Position numbers and translations under genes: made by a program | Shown here: positions 16,512-55,210 of the stretch, piece by piece | Layout of the letters: every line of letters begins with the position of its first letter | Numbering within the stretch: position 1 is the first letter of the stretch | Assembly (NCBI GenBank): GCA_947496235.1 | Contig: CANMCE010000005.1 | Coordinates: forward strand, 1 to 64,000 | Source of the DNA: an uncultured Glaciecola sp. | GTDB lineage: Bacteria > Pseudomonadota > Gammaproteobacteria > Enterobacterales > Alteromonadaceae | DNA: 64,000 bases | Reading direction: 5' to 3' | Notes under the pieces: model-generated | Database searches by the model: none | Told to the model about the DNA's origin: nothing | The model's input: the letters and a program-made list of their open reading frames with translations, nothing else

Positions 16512-16528
16512 CTTAAGTAATCCTTAAT
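16512..16528. promoter_or_regulatory. Possible PmrA/QseB-type box upstream of the START-domain gene
   Basis: CTTAAG-N5-CTTAAT, two half-sites 11 bp apart, very like the repeats at 48216-48233 and 52143-52170. It lies about 210 bases before the START-domain gene, far for a typical box, and may be chance. Confidence 0.35.
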
Positions 16529-47323: not shown

Positions 47324-48070
47324 CTATGCGAGGGCTATTGCGATAGATAGCATCCAAGCGCCTGCGGCAATCATAATTAAGTTCTCTGAAAGTGATACAA
47401 ATCCAAGGGGGACGTTACTGTCTCCTCCAACACATGCGCATTTCAATTCACGTTTGTCGATGTACACAGCTTTGATAACAGAAATTGCGCCTACGGCACC
47501 TATAAATAAAGAGACTGGGCCTACAACAAAACCACTTAATCCGGCTATCATTCCTATGCCTGCAAAGGCTTCTGCAAAGGGATAGACATAAGCATATCTA
47601 ATGTTTCGCATAGCGATGAGATCGTACGTGATAAAACTATTGGTAAAACTGTATAGATCTTGTAGCTTTTGCACGGCAAGGATTACCATGGCATAGGCGA
47701 CAAACATCAACGGTAGCTTTAAGGTCAATAAAGGTTGTGCTGTACCTGCTAGATGGGCAACAGCTAAAAGTAAACTAACGGAAAAAATAGCGATTACCGG
47801 TGTGTAAGTAGTGCCAGACTGTCCAGCTTGGTCTTTATGGAAGTATTCGCGTAAGTCATCGTAGCCACCGACCCGTTCACCTTCAATAAAGGTTTGCGGC
47901 GTGGTTTTAACACCTTGTTCGCGTTTAAATTTTTCTTGTTCTTCTCTAGTTGTTAACAGATGATCTTCGACTTCAAACCCTTCTCGCTCCAACAAATCTT
48001 TAGAGCGCAGTCCAAAGGGACAAATATGGTCATCAGTATGCATGCGATACAGTACTGCAGTAGTTGCCAT
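47324..48070 (-). CDS. Glutaredoxin fused to MauE-like membrane domain
   Basis: This 248-residue protein joins two domains. Residues 1-80 are a glutaredoxin (VLYRMHTDDHICPFGLRSKDLL with the active-site CPFG, only one Cys; VKTTPQTFIEGERVGGYDDLREYF). Residues 90-248 hold about four membrane helices typical of MauE/DoxX-like redox-associated proteins, including the Cys pair KCACVGGDS, which could exchange electrons with the membrane domain. It has AAGGAG before its ATG and is divergent from the two-component operon, with the CTTAAG repeat in the shared spacer. Probably it moves thiol-disulfide electrons across the inner membrane. Confidence 0.8.
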   Translation of the reverse strand: MATTAVLYRMHTDDHICPFGLRSKDLLEREGFEVEDHLLTTREEQEKFKREQGVKTTPQTFIEGERVGGYDDLREYFHKDQAGQSGTTYTPVIAIFSVSLLLAVAHLAGTAQPLLTLKLPLMFVAYAMVILAVQKLQDLYSFTNSFITYDLIAMRNIRYAYVYPFAEAFAGIGMIAGLSGFVVGPVSLFIGAVGAISVIKAVYIDKRELKCACVGGDSNVPLGFVSLSENLIMIAAGAWMLSIAIALA

Positions 48071-48215
48071 TTTATTCTCCTTTTAGGGTGTAAAATTTTT
48101 ATGTTAATAAGAATTTTTTTCTCATTTCGAGGGTGATTTACAAGGAAATTCAGCCTTTAAAGCAGATAGAGCATTTTTTGTGCCGAACTTCTTTTCACCT
48201 AAAAAATACTAAAGC

Positions 48216-48233
48216 CTTAAGGTTAACCTAAGG
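48216..48233. promoter_or_regulatory. PmrA/QseB-type box before the two-component operon
   Basis: CTTAAGGTTAACCTAAGG: two half-sites (CTTAAGG, CCTAAGG) 11 bp apart, matching the known PmrA/QseB box of hexamers separated by 5 bp. It lies about 96 bases before the response regulator and in the spacer shared with the divergent glutaredoxin gene, so autoregulation and control of both is inferred. Confidence 0.65.
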
Positions 48234-48328
48234 GACTGAGTTAAAAATACTTTCCATGTTTAATCTAGACCGCTACACTTTGAGCATTATTTCCCACCAT
48301 GTTTAATTTTTACAAAGGCATTAGTTAG

Positions 48329-48985
48329 ATGCGACTACTGTTAGTAGAAGACGATATACCCCTAGCCGAAGGACTCAAACAATCTCTCAAACGAGAAAAC
48401 TACTCGGTGGACTGGGTCGACAATGGAAAATTTGCCTTAGCGGCTGCGCAAACTGGAGAGCCAGACCTCATCATTTTGGATTTAGGCTTACCTGATATGG
48501 ATGGATTAGATGTTCTTCGTAGCCTGCAAGCAAAGAAAATTCAAATTCCAGTACTAGTTTTAACAGCCAGAGACGGCATAGAAAATAAAGTGCAAGGGCT
48601 TGATCTTGGGGCTCAAGACTATTTGGCGAAACCTTTTGATATCGCAGAATTATTAGCTAGGATCCGAGTGATAGAACGCCGTTTGGGCACGGGACAATCG
48701 AATAACATCGAAATTAAAGGTATCAGCTTGGATATCACAGCGCATATGCTCTATTACCAAGGAGAGCCCATCAGCTTGTCCAAAAAAGAGTACATGATAG
48801 TGAAATCTTTGATGGAAAATGCAGGTCGAATTATCTCTAAAAATCAATTAGAAACAAAATTGTACGAGTGGGGTGAAGAAGTCAGTAGCAATGCTATAGA
48901 AGTGCATGTACATAACATTCGCAAAAAGCTTCCTGTAGATTTAGTTCAGACGGTTCGTGGTGTTGGTTATATTGTGAGAAAATAA
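48329..48985 (+). CDS. OmpR-family response regulator of QseB/PmrA type
   Basis: This 218-residue protein has a receiver domain with acidic pocket (LLLVEDDIPLAE), phospho-Asp51 (LIILDLGLPDMDG), Thr in VLTARD and Lys in YLAKPFD, then a winged-helix domain whose recognition segment (KLYEWGEEVSSNAIEVHVHNIRKKL) matches QseB and PmrA. These regulators bind CTTAAG-N5-CTTAAG. The kinase gene starts in the next base after its stop. It probably controls its own operon and the TlpA operon at 52217 through the boxes described. Confidence 0.92.
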   Translation: MRLLLVEDDIPLAEGLKQSLKRENYSVDWVDNGKFALAAAQTGEPDLIILDLGLPDMDGLDVLRSLQAKKIQIPVLVLTARDGIENKVQGLDLGAQDYLAKPFDIAELLARIRVIERRLGTGQSNNIEIKGISLDITAHMLYYQGEPISLSKKEYMIVKSLMENAGRIISKNQLETKLYEWGEEVSSNAIEVHVHNIRKKLPVDLVQTVRGVGYIVRK

Positions 48986-50308
48986 GTGTCGATAAAACGT
49001 CAGCTTGTTCTGTTAATAATATCCGCGGTAGTACTGGCCAGTTTTTTTGCTGGCTTACACGGATATCGCAATACCAAACAACAGATGGACGCAATTTTTA
49101 CCAATGAACTAATTACAGTCGCCAATTTTATTCTCAGCACAGCACGTCAGAATGACGGTCTGCCCGCATCTGTAGAGGCTAAATATGCTTTTCAGGTCAT
49201 CGCAAACAACCGAGTAATTAGCCGCAGTAATAACACCCCTGAAGAGCCTGTTCCTACAAATTTAGCGGGTTTCTCAGAACGTAGTTTTAGTAACCAGCGT
49301 TGGTATTTGTATACTTTGGTATCCCATGATTTAACCGTGGTGGTAGGGCAACCGGTAAATTCTAGGGTAAATGCCGCCGAATCCGTGTTAGTTGTGACTT
49401 TAACACCCATAGTATTTTCAGTGCCTATTATTGGGTTATTAATTTATTTTATTGTGGCTAAAAGTTTGAATCCGCTGTTGTTGTTATCATCTCAATTAAC
49501 GAAAAAGGACAGTCGAGATTTAACCCCAGTCGACATAGGCACACCTCCCACAGAGCTAACACCTGTGGTCGAACGCTTGAACAACTTACTAAATAGGTTA
49601 GACAATGCCTTTGAGCGGGAAAAGCAATTGACCGCCAATGCAGCACATGAATTGCGCACCCCTGTGAGTGTTCTAACGCTAACCGCTCACAACATTGCAG
49701 CGGATTTTGCGGCAGGAAAATTATCCAAAGAAACCTTGCAGCAATTGGCCGCCAATGTTGACCGCATGGCCCATGTTATTGAACAAATGATAGCCTTGTT
49801 CCGCTTTACGCCTGAGCAGTTTAATGCAGAGAAAAAAGACACTGATCTAGAAGCGATTCTGCAAGAGGTAATTGCTAAAAATTATGATTCAGTGGAGCGA
49901 AATGAACAAAATATCAGTCTTGAATCCGAACATTTGAGCTTAGTGGCAGACAAGTTCGCTTTAATGACGCTGTTTCAAAACTTGATTGGTAATGCGATTA
50001 AATACAGCGGACCGAAAGCCACTATTGCCATTAGATTGCAATCTGAACAGCATTTGATAGAAATAGTAGTAGAAGATTCAGGAAAAGGCGTATCAGAAAA
50101 TGAATATAAAGCCATTTTTGAACGTTTCTATAGAGTCAATCATAATCAAACCAGAGAAAAAGGTTCTGGATTGGGATTAACTATCGCTCATTATATTGTT
50201 GAACTTCATGACGGAGAAATTTTTGCGACTAAATCTCAACTGGGCGGCTTAGCCGTGCATGTGCGACTGCCAATGTCAGAACAATCACAGGAAAAAGTAT
50301 ATGGGTAG
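48986..50308 (+). CDS. Sensor histidine kinase of QseC/PmrB type
   Basis: This 440-residue protein has a membrane helix at residues 7-25, a periplasmic sensor of about 110 residues ending with RWYLYTLVSHDLTVVVGQPVNSR (as in QseC), a second helix around 137-157, HAMP, HisKA with His221 (AAHELRTPVSVL) and HATPase (NLIGNAIKYSG, SGKGVSENEY, GSGLGLTIAHYI). Its GTG start directly follows the regulator stop. The signal is unknown. PmrB relatives sense ferric iron; the classic ExxE sites were not seen in the sensor. Its end overlaps the cupredoxin gene by 8 bases, so sensor and redox genes are one operon. Confidence 0.92.
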   Translation: MSIKRQLVLLIISAVVLASFFAGLHGYRNTKQQMDAIFTNELITVANFILSTARQNDGLPASVEAKYAFQVIANNRVISRSNNTPEEPVPTNLAGFSERSFSNQRWYLYTLVSHDLTVVVGQPVNSRVNAAESVLVVTLTPIVFSVPIIGLLIYFIVAKSLNPLLLLSSQLTKKDSRDLTPVDIGTPPTELTPVVERLNNLLNRLDNAFEREKQLTANAAHELRTPVSVLTLTAHNIAADFAAGKLSKETLQQLAANVDRMAHVIEQMIALFRFTPEQFNAEKKDTDLEAILQEVIAKNYDSVERNEQNISLESEHLSLVADKFALMTLFQNLIGNAIKYSGPKATIAIRLQSEQHLIEIVVEDSGKGVSENEYKAIFERFYRVNHNQTREKGSGLGLTIAHYIVELHDGEIFATKSQLGGLAVHVRLPMSEQSQEKVYG

Positions 50309-50666
50309 CATAAAACCTTTTTCCACTATTTATAGTTGTATAACTTTGCTGTTACTTACGGCATCTAGTCTTGCTTTGGCTGAACTGAAAGTCTTCACAC
50401 TCACCCTCGAAAATCACGTATTTACGCCTCAAGAAATACAAATACCTGCGAATCAAAAAGTGAAGTTGGTGATTGAAAATAAAGATGATTTAGCAGAAGA
50501 ATTTGATAGTTTCGATCTCAACCGAGAAAGAGTGATCTTTGCCAATAAAAAAGCCAGCATATATATAGGACCCCTTGAACCAGGACGCTACGAGTTTTTC
50601 GGTGAATTTAATCCTCATACCGCAAGAGGTTATGTCGTGGTTAAGGAGGAAAATAAAGATGACTAA
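50301..50666 (+). CDS. Periplasmic cupredoxin-like protein without the copper ligands
   Basis: This 121-residue protein has a signal peptide (CITLLLLTASSLALA) and a Cupredoxin_1 domain: FTPQEIQIPANQKVKLVIENKDDLAEEFDSFDLNRERVI and IGPLEPGRYEFFGEFNPHTARGYVVV. The Cys and Met ligands of blue copper proteins are absent, while conserved acidic residues (EEFDSF, NRE, GEF) remain, as in the cupredoxin-like partners of FTR1 permeases. It may bind ferric iron or another ion through carboxylates. It starts within the kinase gene and overlaps the permease gene by 8 bases. Confidence 0.82.
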   Translation: MGSIKPFSTIYSCITLLLLTASSLALAELKVFTLTLENHVFTPQEIQIPANQKVKLVIENKDDLAEEFDSFDLNRERVIFANKKASIYIGPLEPGRYEFFGEFNPHTARGYVVVKEENKDD

Positions 50667-51432
50667 CATAGTGATTGTTTTCCTCAGAGATCTATTGCCA
50701 ATTTTTATATTAATTTGTTATGCCACTGAAATACCACAGCATTTTGCTTATTCAAAAGGCAAGTGGATTACTATGGTAGTTATCGGCGTGCTGGGATCTG
50801 TTGTCATTTGGGGCAATGTAGAAATTTTTGTGGATTGGTTTGAAGGTGCAGGTATGGAAGTCGTCTATACCCTAATGATTATGCTGAGTTATCTTATGTT
50901 TGTGTTGGCTTGGCTGGCCTCACCTAAGAATGCAAAAGCCCTACTGTTTACTGGGGTTGCACTCTTTGTTTGCTATAAACTTACCGAATTTTTGATTTTC
51001 TTTGAAGTTGTGACTCAACAACAAGTTGGTTTTCTCAACGCTGGATTAGGGGTTATTTTTGGTATCGGCATTTGTAGCAGTTTTGCGGTTCTTTTTAAGT
51101 TTGCGTTAAGCCAAATAGGGCAAACTAAATACAGATACTTTATTATTCTGTGTTGGAGTATGTTCTTGGCGGGATTGTTGAGTCAAATATCTCCCTTACT
51201 GGCGCAAGTCGATTTTGTGAATACAGGGGTGTCCGTTTTTAATCTTTCAGATTATGTCAGCGACAGTTCTGAATATGGACATTTGCTTAACGCGCTAATC
51301 GGCTACGAATCTTCACCAGATGCTACTTATTTAGCCATCTATTCTATTGCGTTTCTGGTCTCTTTATTGGTTTATAAATTTAGGCGGGGACAGCAGCATG
51401 CTGTTATTAGTGGAGCCTTAAGTCATGAATAA
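50659..51432 (+). CDS. FTR1-like membrane permease with altered REXXE motif
   Basis: This 257-residue protein has about seven membrane segments, as in FTR1/EfeU iron permeases. The first segment, IVFLRDLLPIFILICY, holds Arg-Asp-Leu-Leu-Pro where FTR1 has REGLE, so the two glutamates that bind iron are Asp and Pro. The segment GMEVVYTLMIMLSYLMFVLAW corresponds to the second half's EG--T region with a Glu kept. ATG 50659 has GGAGG 8 bases upstream and overlaps the cupredoxin gene. It may move iron or electrons rather than be a standard permease; this is inference. Confidence 0.75.
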   Translation: MTNIVIVFLRDLLPIFILICYATEIPQHFAYSKGKWITMVVIGVLGSVVIWGNVEIFVDWFEGAGMEVVYTLMIMLSYLMFVLAWLASPKNAKALLFTGVALFVCYKLTEFLIFFEVVTQQQVGFLNAGLGVIFGIGICSSFAVLFKFALSQIGQTKYRYFIILCWSMFLAGLLSQISPLLAQVDFVNTGVSVFNLSDYVSDSSEYGHLLNALIGYESSPDATYLAIYSIAFLVSLLVYKFRRGQQHAVISGALSHE

Positions 51433-52117
51433 GTTACTCACTTTGATTTTGCTCTTAATGTCATTTAATGCACTGGCAGATGGCATTGTGGTTGATCGTG
51501 TATATCATCCTTATGTTACCGTTAATGAGCGCGAATTCGAGTGGCGATTCATGTCTAGTCAAACCGACGATAAGAACATACTCAACCAGAAACTAGGTTA
51601 TGGGCACGCTATTTTCGAAAAGGTTGCGGTAGAGTTTTACATTATTGGTGAACGTGACCAAAATGATAACTTTGCAGTCTCAGGATACGAACTAGAGTCT
51701 CGTATAATGCTCACGGAACAAGGACAATATTGGGCTGATTGGGGTGCTGTGATTGAACTTGAAAAGGCCAATGCAAATGAAAATTATGAAGCGTCCGTAG
51801 GTTTATTGTTTGAAAAAGAATTCACCAAAACCAGCTTAACGTTAAATTTATTTGGTATCTATGAATGGGGTAAAACCATTGAAAGTGAATGGGAAACTGA
51901 ATTTAGATTAAAGTACCGTTATAGATACATGCCTGAAATACAACCTTCGATAGAACTCTATTCCGGAGAAGACTTTGTTGGTATTGGTCCGGGATTTATG
52001 GGGGTTCACCGTATTGAAGGTCAACGTCAGATAAAATGGGAAGCGGGTTTTATCACAGAAGTTGCACACTCTGGTAAAAACCATACCTTCCGCTTTGCCT
52101 TTGAATATGAGTTTTAA
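51425..52117 (+). CDS. Outer-membrane beta-barrel protein
   Basis: This 230-residue protein has a signal peptide (LLTLILLLMSFNALA) and many alternating strands (VAVEFYIIGERD, ELESRIMLTEQGQYWADWGAV, LTLNLFGIYEWG) ending with the aromatic C-terminal residue Phe (FAFEYEF) needed for outer-membrane insertion. It overlaps the FTR1-like gene by 8 bases. It is likely the outer-membrane part of the metal/redox module, but no ligand is known. Confidence 0.78.
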   Translation: MNKLLTLILLLMSFNALADGIVVDRVYHPYVTVNEREFEWRFMSSQTDDKNILNQKLGYGHAIFEKVAVEFYIIGERDQNDNFAVSGYELESRIMLTEQGQYWADWGAVIELEKANANENYEASVGLLFEKEFTKTSLTLNLFGIYEWGKTIESEWETEFRLKYRYRYMPEIQPSIELYSGEDFVGIGPGFMGVHRIEGQRQIKWEAGFITEVAHSGKNHTFRFAFEYEF

Positions 52118-52142
52118 GGTTTCTTTGTTTATTTTACGTTAT

Positions 52143-52170
52143 CTTAAGTAATCTTAAGGTTCACTTAAGG
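52143..52170. promoter_or_regulatory. Three CTTAAG repeats before the TlpA-DUF4266-DUF3570 operon
   Basis: CTTAAGT (52143-52149), CTTAAGG (52153-52159) and CTTAAGG (52164-52170), spaced 10 and 11 bp, with a weaker TTTAAGG at 52113-52119. The last pair, CTTAAGGTTCACTTAAGG, fits the PmrA/QseB box very well and sits about 47-65 bases before the TlpA start. Confidence 0.72.
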
Positions 52171-52216
52171 TTGCCCAGCTAATCTTGGTCTCAATACTCG
52201 TTATTGTAGCCAGATT

Positions 52217-52705
52217 ATGCAAAAAACCTTTGTCTTTATTATTTTCCTGTCAATTAACATGGCATTGGCGTCTTTGAGTTTCGCCAATCAAGTAGCGCCG
52301 AATTTTACACTTGATGCTCAGACAAAACTTTCCGATTTAAAAGGTCAGGTGGTGTATGTGGATTTTTGGGCAAGTTGGTGTAAGCCTTGTCGAAAATCCT
52401 TTCCTTGGATGAATGATATGCACGCTAAATATCCACACCTAAAAGTTATCGCAATAAACCTAGATGAAGAGCGTGAAATGGCAGCAAAGTTTTTAGCACA
52501 AACTCCTGCCGATTTTCAGATTGTTTATGATCCTCAGGGCGAAATAGCCCAAGACTATGAACTGGTTGGTATGCCGAGCAGTTATCTGATCGACAAAAAG
52601 GGCAATATTAGATTTGCCCACCAAGGTTTTTTCCTCAGTAAACAAGCGCAATATGAACAGGAAATTCAGCTATTAATGTCTGAATTTGCTGATGATGCAA
52701 AATAG
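52217..52705 (+). CDS. TlpA/ResA-type periplasmic thioredoxin
   Basis: This 162-residue protein has a signal peptide (FVFIIFLSINMALASLSFA) and a thioredoxin fold with active site WASWCKPCRKSFPW, then YDPQGEIAQDYELVGMPSSYLIDKKG with the cis-Pro before the active site partner. It should reduce disulfides in the periplasm, and may serve DUF4266 lipoprotein cysteines downstream. Its own promoter region carries the CTTAAG boxes. The next gene begins 13 bases after its stop. Confidence 0.9.
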   Translation: MQKTFVFIIFLSINMALASLSFANQVAPNFTLDAQTKLSDLKGQVVYVDFWASWCKPCRKSFPWMNDMHAKYPHLKVIAINLDEEREMAAKFLAQTPADFQIVYDPQGEIAQDYELVGMPSSYLIDKKGNIRFAHQGFFLSKQAQYEQEIQLLMSEFADDAK

Positions 52706-52718
52706 AAGGATAAGTGTC

Positions 52719-52958
52719 ATGAAAAAAATAAACATTAAGAACAATCTGCAAAAAATCGTCTTTTTGCTTTGTATCGCTCAATTAGGCGGTTGTGCATCTC
52801 TAGGTGTAGAACCTTGGGAGCGTCAGTTTTTGGCTAAAGAAGAAATGGCGTTAGATGCTGAAGGTGTAGATTTAGGTTTAGATGACCATATTTATTTTAG
52901 TAAAGAAGCTACCAGTGGTGGTAGAGCCTTTGCTGGAGGCGGCTGCGGATGCAACTAA
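52719..52958 (+). CDS. DUF4266 small lipoprotein with Gly/Cys tail
   Basis: This 79-residue protein has a lipobox (AQLGGCAS) and the DUF4266 body: VEPWERQFLAKEEMALDA, DHIYFSKEATSGG and the C-terminal RAFAGGGCGCN. The final GGGCGCN is the family's hallmark and offers two cysteines for a metal, flavin or thiol link. ATG 52719 has AAGGA 9 bases upstream. It overlaps the DUF3570 gene by 10 bases. In this kind of cluster it co-occurs with TlpA, DUF3570 and ApbE. Function unknown. Confidence 0.88.
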   Translation: MKKINIKNNLQKIVFLLCIAQLGGCASLGVEPWERQFLAKEEMALDAEGVDLGLDDHIYFSKEATSGGRAFAGGGCGCN

Positions 52959-54244
52959 TCAAAGATAAAAAAGTCGCAGCGACATTAGCCGCAGCTACTT
53001 GTGCCCTGTTAGGCACTCAACCAGCCCAAGCTAACGAACAAAAGGATGATGCTTGGCAATTTGATACAGCTATTTTGTACTATGGAGAAAGTGATCGTGT
53101 TCAGCTAGTAGAGGGTGTTTTTAACGCCAAAAAAGACTTTGGAGACGAACATATTTTCTCAGCCAAATTGGTCGTAGATACGCTAACAGGTGCAAGTGCA
53201 TCAGGTGCAGTTGCTCAGCCTGGCGTGCAAACCTTTACGCGTCCTTCAGGCAATGGTTCATATCAAGTTAATGCAGGAGAAACTCCCTTAGATGATACTT
53301 TTAGAGATACCAGAGTTCAGTTAAGTGGTCAGTGGACACAACCAATTTTCGAAAATACTCGGGTAAGTACGGGTTTTAACTTCTCTAACGAGTACGATTA
53401 TTTATCCATAGGCGCCAATGCTTCGTTAGCGCGAGATTTTAATCGCAAAAATACCACGCTTTCTTTTGGAGTTTCTTATCAGTTTGATAGCATAGATCCG
53501 GTAGGGTATGCACCTATTGGTCTAGCGCAAATGCAACTGGCCAGTGAATTTGATAGCGAAGAAGCCTTTAGAACTGCGTTTGATGCGACTCGTGATACAG
53601 AAGATAAAGACAAAGATACATTTGATGTATTATTAGGTTTAACACAAGTCATCAACAAGCGCATGCTAATGCAATTCAACTATGGATATTCGGTAGTTGA
53701 CGGTTATTTAAACGACCCTTACAAGTTGGTGAGTGTGGTAAATGACACAGGTTTAACGCTACGAAATCTGCATGAGAATCGTCCAGACGAGCGAACCAAA
53801 CACAATGTGTTTTGGCAAACCAAATATGCCTTAGATTCAGGTGTAATTGATGTGTCCTATCGATATTCAACGGACGACTGGGATATTGATTCTCACACTA
53901 TCGACAGTAGATTTAGATGGAATATTTCTGAGACTTCTTATATTCAACCGCATTTTAGGTATTACACCCAAAGCGCAGCGAAGTTTTATGAGCCTTTCTT
54001 GGAAGAAAGTACCCCGTTGCCAATGTTTGCAAGTGCTGACTACCGCTTAGGCGAGATGGATGCCTACACCATAGGGTTAAAATATGGGCAAACACTCAGC
54101 AATGGCCATAAATGGGCAGTTCGAGCAGAGTATTATAGTCAACGTCCCACTTCTGATGGTACAGCAGCTATAGGTGTTCTAAACGATCTAGATCTTTACC
54201 CGTCTATCGACGCCTTTATTTTGCAATTTAACTACCATTTCTAA
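52949..54244 (+). CDS. DUF3570 outer-membrane beta-barrel protein
   Basis: This 431-residue protein has an export signal (AATLAAATCALLGTQPAQA) and matches DUF3570: WQFDTAILYYGESDRVQLVEGVFNAKKDFGDEHIFSAKLVVDTLTGASASGAVAQ at the start, a series of amphipathic strands and the C-terminal IDAFILQFNYHF with a final Phe. It is an outer-membrane barrel of unknown role whose gene overlaps that of the DUF4266 lipoprotein, so a physical complex is plausible. Confidence 0.88.
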   Translation: MQLIKDKKVAATLAAATCALLGTQPAQANEQKDDAWQFDTAILYYGESDRVQLVEGVFNAKKDFGDEHIFSAKLVVDTLTGASASGAVAQPGVQTFTRPSGNGSYQVNAGETPLDDTFRDTRVQLSGQWTQPIFENTRVSTGFNFSNEYDYLSIGANASLARDFNRKNTTLSFGVSYQFDSIDPVGYAPIGLAQMQLASEFDSEEAFRTAFDATRDTEDKDKDTFDVLLGLTQVINKRMLMQFNYGYSVVDGYLNDPYKLVSVVNDTGLTLRNLHENRPDERTKHNVFWQTKYALDSGVIDVSYRYSTDDWDIDSHTIDSRFRWNISETSYIQPHFRYYTQSAAKFYEPFLEESTPLPMFASADYRLGEMDAYTIGLKYGQTLSNGHKWAVRAEYYSQRPTSDGTAAIGVLNDLDLYPSIDAFILQFNYHF

Positions 54245-54265
54245 CACCCCATCAGGCAATTGTGT

Positions 54266-55210
54266 ATGATAGATCTGCATACACAATTGTCATCTAGTTT
54301 TCTCATGACGAAATTAACAGCCGAACTCGACTATCAATTAGAAACTAAAGAAGACTTTATCATTGGCAGATTCAATGCCATGGCGAGTCCATGTGAACTC
54401 TTGATCGATAGCAAAGATCTTTCTTTAGGCCAAAACTTAATGAGTGTGGCAGTAAACGAAACCCGCCGCATAGAAGCAAAATTTAGTCGCTATAAAAACG
54501 ATAATCTAATGCATGCTATCAATAACAGCCGCGGTAACCCCGTGTTTATTGATCAGGAAACTTATCAGCTACTTCAATTTGCCGATACCTGTTACCAACT
54601 TAGCGAAGGCATGTTTGATATTACCTCCGGTGTTTTGAGAAAAATTTGGAAATTCGATGGCTCTGATAACATACCCACAGCGACTCAGGTACGCCAAATT
54701 TTACCCTTTATCGATTGGCAAAAGGTTGTATTTACGCCGACACAGATAATTTTGCCTAAGGGGTTTGAATTAGATTTAGGCGGCATCGGAAAAGAATATG
54801 CGGTAAGTCGGGTAAGTAATTTGATGCTCTCAATGGCACCGAATAACTCAGTGCTGGTCAATTTTGGTGGTGACATCCAAGTGAGCCAAGTGCGTAAGGA
54901 TAAGAAAGCATGGCAGGTAGGTATCGAGAATCCAACAAACGCCAAAGGTCTGGCGGTTGTACAAATCAGAGAAGGCGGCTTAGCAACCTCTGGTGATGCC
55001 AATCGTTACCTGTTAAAAGACAACAAACGCTATTCTCATATACTCAACCCTAAAACAGGTTATTCGATAGAGAATGCGCCGAGATCCGTTACTGTTGCAG
55101 GGATAGATTGTATTCAATCAGGAATACTAGCTACCCTAGCGTTACTGCAAGGACAGCAAAGCGAAACGTTTTTGGAGGCTCAAGGCGTTACTTTTTGGTG
55201 TTACAGATAG
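54266..55210 (+). CDS. ApbE-like FAD:protein FMN transferase
   Basis: This protein of about 314 residues has the ApbE fold: FNAMASPCELLIDS, FSRYKNDNLMHAINNS, GMFDITSGVLRKIWKFDG, FELDLGGIGKEYAVSRV, VNFGGDIQVS, GGLATSGDANRYL and YSHILNPKTG. ApbE moves FMN from FAD to Thr/Ser of exported flavoproteins. No clear signal peptide or lipobox is visible, and in the C-terminal helix (CIQSGILATLALLQG) the Mg-binding Asp of the family's 'D-L-T' motif is Gly while the Thr is kept. A full signature target motif (S/T-G-A-[ST]) was not found nearby. ATG 54305 is another possible start. Confidence 0.85.
   Translation: MIDLHTQLSSSFLMTKLTAELDYQLETKEDFIIGRFNAMASPCELLIDSKDLSLGQNLMSVAVNETRRIEAKFSRYKNDNLMHAINNSRGNPVFIDQETYQLLQFADTCYQLSEGMFDITSGVLRKIWKFDGSDNIPTATQVRQILPFIDWQKVVFTPTQIILPKGFELDLGGIGKEYAVSRVSNLMLSMAPNNSVLVNFGGDIQVSQVRKDKKAWQVGIENPTNAKGLAVVQIREGGLATSGDANRYLLKDNKRYSHILNPKTGYSIENAPRSVTVAGIDCIQSGILATLALLQGQQSETFLEAQGVTFWCYR

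Follow-up and report, generated by a model that had tools for sequence, protein, structure and literature searches.

The 64,000-nucleotide stretch of DNA analysed here (the window), from an uncultured Glaciecola sp., carries a locus that probably consists of two neighbouring transcription units of one PmrA/QseB-type regulon, which together build a thiol-to-flavin electron path at the outer membrane. Unit A (48329-52117) comprises the genes for a response regulator, a sensor kinase, a cupredoxin, an FTR1-like protein and an outer-membrane barrel; unit B (52217-55210) encodes TlpA, DUF4266, DUF3570 and ApbE. In the proposed mechanism, the two-component pair of unit A would activate its own operon (cupredoxin, degenerate FTR1-like protein and 12-strand barrel) and, via a separate putative operator at 52153, unit B. 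TlpA would keep the C-terminal CXC of DUF4266 reduced, and DUF4266 would hand electrons to the flavin mononucleotide (FMN) that ApbE attaches to Ser83 of DUF3570. The flavin would probably be attached in the cytoplasm, with export of DUF3570 following, and with Ser83 in a conserved extracellular loop of the barrel it could meet an acceptor on or close to the cell surface. The task of unit A would be to sense the condition and to deal with the product, which may be a metal ion, by a mechanism other than the REXXE mechanism of FTR1.

Operators and linkage of the two units

A tandem hexamer scan of the 250 bases upstream of the first genes gave one clear winner, CTTAAG occurring twice, 11 bases apart (CTTAAG-N5-CTTAAG). 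Verified PmrA half-sites, which are separated by five bases, read CTTAAG/NTTAAT in Salmonella and CTTAAT/CCTAAG in Klebsiella (PMC3973317), and by its match to these sites the element is a PmrA box. The putative operator before unit A (48216-48232) reads CTTAAG-GTTAA-CCTAAG, with one mismatch and half-sites five bases apart, and that before unit B (52153-52169) is the exact CTTAAG-GTTCA-CTTAAG, 64 bases before the ATG of TlpA and accompanied by an additional CTTAAG half-site at 52143. The window holds three boxes where 0.24 are expected. The third, at 16512-16528, has one mismatch and lies over 200 bases upstream of what is probably the next gene. Generic sigma-70 promoter and terminator scans returned chance level or nearly so.

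In the related loci, where up to two mismatches were allowed, a box was found upstream of TlpA in all 31 loci with unit A (0.95 in shuffles) and upstream of a further unit, C, in 58 of 60 (1.45 in shuffles). Where the regulator is the first gene of the operon, a box precedes it in 23 of 35 loci, but where B or C is directly upstream, this is so in 0 of 75 (Fisher p=3e-15); therefore the box marks the operon start, whichever unit leads. It is kept in B clusters distant from A within A-bearing genomes (L143, L154 and L157) and is present in four B clusters that lack A and have their own QseB-like pair (L138-L141). Among the ten B clusters with neither A nor such a pair, eight have no box and two (L142 and L145) have a weak one. 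L138-L141 belong to another family of the order; the QseB-like regulator and kinase follow ApbE directly there, and cupredoxin and FTR1-like genes are absent.

The best candidate reader of these boxes is the unit A regulator, because it is linked to them and apparently regulates itself. This PmrA/QseB-like response regulator of the OmpR family (48329-48985, forward strand, as are all genes of both units) scores 229 of 330 bits for PmrA and 207 of 345 bits for QseB, under both equivalog cut-offs, and its nearest paralogue in the genome is 37% identical. Its gene abuts that of a QseC/PmrB-like sensor histidine kinase (48986-50308), and 8-base overlaps join each of the next three genes (cupredoxin, FTR1-like and barrel) to the one before.

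Unit A is an operon in its own right, found in more than 100 Alteromonadales and related loci. Judged by its FTR1-like gene, it is present in 16 of 41 relatives, and judged by its barrel gene, in 25 of 395 genomes of the order; the genome collection contains 249 stretches with the unit. The DUF3570 of unit B is present in 102 of the 395 genomes, 88 of which lack unit A; 14 genomes have both units, within 5 kb of each other in six. As random positions in a 4.3-Mb genome would give about 0.03 such genomes, the neighbourhood is not due to chance. Among 101 distinct unit A loci, B lies near A in 30: upstream on the same strand in 17, downstream on the same strand in six, which is the arrangement of the window, and on the opposite strand in seven. 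On a FastTree phylogeny of regulator, kinase and barrel, the linkage changes 17 times, of which at least 13 changes are forced by well supported branches; some branches are long and the exact number is soft, and yet, judging from this tree, it is not in doubt that A and B became neighbours repeatedly.

These comparisons make the regulon and the repeated linkage well supported at the sequence level. The original prediction had inferred co-regulation of the two halves from gene spacing alone, and this part gains strength: the halves are linked and very probably co-regulated. It had also merged them into a single pathway, to be abandoned if DUF4266/DUF3570/ApbE clusters were regularly found apart from the cupredoxin half and the two halves shared no expression. 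Such clusters are indeed common without unit A, so that A and B are not one obligate pathway, while the absence of shared expression is contradicted by the shared putative operator.

The flavinylation cassette and the predicted barrels

Unit B belongs to a published type of flavinylation cluster and is the ordinary part of the locus. Clusters of ApbE, DUF3570, a thioredoxin-like protein and DUF4266 have already been described, and the DUF3570 protein of Chlorobium is flavinylated by ApbE at [S/T]GA[S/T] motifs (Meheust et al. 2021, PMC8238504). The earlier statement that DUF3570 has no assigned function is thus outdated, as the family has been shown to be a substrate of ApbE. As to the function of the clusters, the authors went no further than a possible role in iron, and they counted 221 DUF4266 clusters with DsbD and 316 without. 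DsbD is therefore not essential to such clusters, and none of the ten genes of the present locus encodes it. The TlpA/ResA-like exported thiol-disulfide protein (52217-52705) carries a WCKPC motif. The DUF4266 lipoprotein (ATG 52719 to 52958) has the lipobox LGGC and a C-terminal CXC (GGGCGCN) that is conserved in 50 sequences. In DUF3570 (52949-54244, E=9e-172), the motif TGAS is kept at residues 80-83 (codons 53186-53197), and Ser83, invariant in 47 sequences, is the predicted site of FMN attachment. The proposal that a thiol protein, a lipoprotein with reduced cysteines and a flavin step come together at the outer membrane finds support in both the literature and the structure model.

The source genome holds a second, divergent TlpA-DUF4266-DUF3570 set with an SGAS motif (L034:8704-10673, G000:C14); its neighbours are OMP_b-brl proteins and one that contains a hydrazine-synthase alpha-like domain, and neither a PmrA box nor ApbE was seen beside it. 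No DUF3570 relative was found in the viral contigs searched.

DUF3570 is not described as a barrel in PMC8238504, and no solved structure credibly matches it by sequence. The AlphaFold2 model, built on 47 aligned sequences, is a closed barrel of 16 strands with a mean predicted local distance difference test (pLDDT) of 90 and a predicted template modelling score (pTM) of 0.84; the protein has a signal peptide and a C-terminal Phe, and Foldseek and VIA match the model to outer-membrane barrels of the PDB, including the BamA barrel (Z=21.8) and the polysaccharide exporter 4y25 (Z=19.9). Outer-membrane barrels with an even number of strands have both termini in the periplasm, which would place the long connections of DUF3570 outside the cell. 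In the model, TGAS stands at the end of strand 3 and opens the long loop 82-117, the most conserved long loop of the protein. Invariant loop residues number 30 on the long-loop side and one on the short-turn side, and the matching strand halves contain 27 and 10. Extracellular barrel loops usually vary, so that this conservation points to an active site there. DUF3570 is hence predicted to be an outer-membrane barrel with its flavin site on the cell-surface side. The 230-residue outer-membrane protein that closes unit A (51425-52117) is modelled as a 12-strand beta-barrel (pLDDT 93) and comes closest to channels, namely the COG4313 channel 4rl8 (Z=21) and the KdgM porin (Z=18.5).

The ApbE of the window (54266-55210), whose ATG lies 21 bases past the end of DUF3570, is an FMN transferase in which neither a signal peptide nor a lipobox was recognised, as judged by N-terminal hydropathy and motif position. 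In 47-49 cluster ApbE proteins, the enzyme fold begins almost at the N-terminus and the hydrophobic leader is absent: the enzyme motif starts at a median of 22 residues, and N-terminal hydropathy is 1.36, compared with 2.3-2.6 for TlpA, DUF4266, the cupredoxin and the 12-strand barrel. These values strongly suggest, but do not prove, that the ApbE proteins of these clusters lack a signal peptide, in which case the flavin would probably be attached in the cytoplasm before export.

A bolder version of the mechanism, which we regard as tentative, is that DUF3570 and DUF4266 form a haem-free outer-membrane electron conduit under a PmrA/QseB-type switch, its flavin loaded in the cytoplasm prior to export. 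The CXC tail of DUF4266 would reach into or through the 16-strand barrel and pass electrons from periplasmic thiols to the covalent FMN on the surface side. The direction of electron flow, the acceptor and the involvement of a metal are inferred.

Neighbouring genes and alternative explanations

Unit C, a group of five genes, lies near A in 56 of the 101 unit A loci, usually directly upstream. It encodes a protein of the thermostable-hemolysin family (a family name only), an AMP-binding ligase, a haem-oxygenase-like iron enzyme, an SDR and a TPR protein. In Colwellia (L175 and L187), C, B and A stand in a row, and in the source genome unit C is on another contig (L239:8761-13121, G000:C2) with the same box at G000:C2:486701. 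Unit C looks like a biosynthetic cassette, and in most relatives it is associated with unit A. Its iron enzyme is absent from all 16 tested genomes without A and also from several with A and B. B and C seem to be partners of A that either replace or supplement each other. A reading of the genes preceding unit A as a P19-type iron system was discarded, as Pfam gave a different set. The literature search found no paper linking thermostable-hemolysin genes with FTR1 or AMP-binding enzymes. All ten genes of the original prediction were confirmed in identity and position by gene calling and family searches of the window, with corrections needed for the FTR1-like, DUF3570 and glutaredoxin-MauE proteins. 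The last of these, a divergent fusion (47324-48070, reverse strand), is not considered a member of the system because it is conserved in none of the related loci examined.

Several observations weigh against a regulon with a surface-side flavin. Genome-wide, boxes with at most one mismatch number 13, compared with 14 in the control, so that the motif alone is weak and the argument is carried by the position and conservation of the boxes. PmrA-type boxes can be read by other regulators, and some of the sites here may be. An exact box stands outside the locus (L240:1501-3017, G000:C4:193023), before genes for a family-2 glycosyltransferase and a VTT-domain membrane protein; this pair could be a further member of the regulon or the target of another PmrA-like regulator. 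The second flavinylation motif of the Chlorobium protein is degenerate, reading SGAV in the window protein and [STN]GA[VIATM] in most relatives; its Gly-Ala is invariant, and the acceptor residue is absent from the window protein. Finally, the loop with the flavin could be folded inwards, into the lumen of the barrel.

The box before the glycosyltransferase and VTT-domain genes also serves an alternative that we consider unlikely, in which the locus belongs to a PmrAB/QseBC-like envelope-stress regulon: A and B would remodel or protect the outer membrane, with the redox proteins providing maintenance and no metal being transported. The PmrA type of the box speaks for it, as does the presence of the same box before unit C, with its acyl-activating enzyme, di-iron oxidase and SDR. 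In several species of the window's genus, a membrane acyltransferase (HGSNAT_cat) is encoded between A and B (L026:7595-8236, L027:10389-11084 and L028:11272-11967), which would also suit such a regulon. However, the conserved genes of A and B include none for lipid A modification, and the cupredoxin and the FTR1-like origin of its partner point to metals instead.

The degenerate FTR1-like membrane protein (ATG 50659 to 51432) gives no match above cut-off to the Pfam FTR1 model (PF03239), which has no match anywhere in the source genome; for EfeU it scores 18 bits against a cut-off of 255, and no solved structure matches its profile. It nevertheless descends from FTR1, as its alignment with the L031 copy indicates (28% identity, E=8e-12), since that copy has the same operon context, both REXXE motifs and a PF03239 score of 60.6 bits. 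In the window protein, both motifs are lost and replaced by RDLLP and KLTE. Of the 112 aligned sequences, three retain both motifs and a fourth retains part; the remaining 108 are degenerate, and all of them have Pro in place of the last Glu of motif 1. Glu95, in helix 3, has been kept. The gene evolves faster than its neighbours (23-37% identity to relatives). Because of the REXXE loss, canonical iron permeation is unlikely, and the protein may act as a sensor or scaffold or in transport of another kind. The cupredoxin-like exported protein (ATG 50301 to 50666) is of the EfeO type (PF13473, 91.6 bits; PDB 8vuk, E=4e-13); it has the conserved acidic motifs EEFDSFDLNRE and GEFxP, and none of the Cys, His and Met ligands of type-1 copper is conserved in it. 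With the glutamates lost and the copper ligands missing, no metal is established, and the original prediction's appeal to FTR1 as a mover of iron cannot be upheld. Where genes in these operons are annotated as 'FTR1', this should not be taken to mean an iron permease.

An iron uptake system can still be envisaged, in which Fe(III) is reduced by surface flavin, enters as Fe(II) through the 12-strand barrel and is re-oxidised by the cupredoxin for import by the FTR1-like permease. The literature connects iron with cupredoxin-FTR1 pairs and with FTR1-P19 systems whose partners are thioredoxin-like or bind FMN, and L031 shows the operon with its iron motifs intact; a search found no literature linking cupredoxin-FTR1 with REXXE. 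However, the nearly universal replacement of these motifs counts against it, neither P19 nor polyferredoxin was found in the locus, and the sensor part of the kinase has no conserved Cys, His or Met besides the start (at positions conserved in at least 70% of 111 orthologues), that is, no conserved metal ligands. Iron uptake is therefore quite unlikely. That unit B is an independent housekeeping flavin-thiol system and a chance neighbour of A, its box being read by another PmrA-like regulator, agrees with the occurrence of B without A in most genomes and with the existence of other OmpR-family regulators (32-40% identity), but is improbable given the repeated independent adjacency to A and the box in B clusters that lie beside A or beside a QseB-like pair of their own.

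Significance and comparison with known systems

What is new here is the A-B(-C) regulon, the loss of the iron motifs of FTR1, the predicted placing of DUF3570 in the outer membrane with a surface-side flavin site and an ApbE that appears to be leaderless. DUF3570 is found in a quarter of the sampled genomes of the order, and the analysis supplies its electron transfer with a candidate regulator, a putative operator, a predicted location and partner genes. If the flavin is indeed exposed at the surface, bacteria have a haem-free electron route through the outer membrane. It would be a further surprise if an exported barrel were indeed served by a flavin transferase that has no signal peptide.

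Unit B resembles the DsbD-type/DUF3570 flavinylation clusters (PMC8238504) in its ApbE, its DUF3570 with [S/T]GA[S/T], its thioredoxin-like protein and its DUF4266 with a C-terminal CXC. It differs in having no DsbD gene, one full flavinylation motif instead of two, a PmrA-type operator with a two-component partner operon, and an ApbE without recognisable signal peptide; moreover, the model assigns DUF3570 to an outer-membrane barrel, which was not stated for those clusters. With the PmrAB and QseBC regulons, the locus shares the type of regulator and kinase and the box CTTAAG-N5-CTTAAG, whereas its regulator falls under the equivalog cut-offs and its putative targets encode redox proteins and a cupredoxin rather than lipid A modification enzymes. 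FTR1/EfeU permeases and cupredoxin-FTR1 systems (EfeUOB and P19-FTR1) likewise pair an EfeO-type cupredoxin with an FTR1-derived membrane protein. In contrast to these, both REXXE motifs are lost here, EfeB is missing from the locus along with P19 and polyferredoxin, and a 12-strand barrel and a two-component pair stand in the same operon. Lastly, porin-cytochrome conduits such as MtrCAB combine an outer-membrane barrel with a redox partner that carries electrons towards the surface. By analogy, DUF3570 and DUF4266 may do the same, with a smaller barrel and with flavin and cysteine pairs in place of haem.

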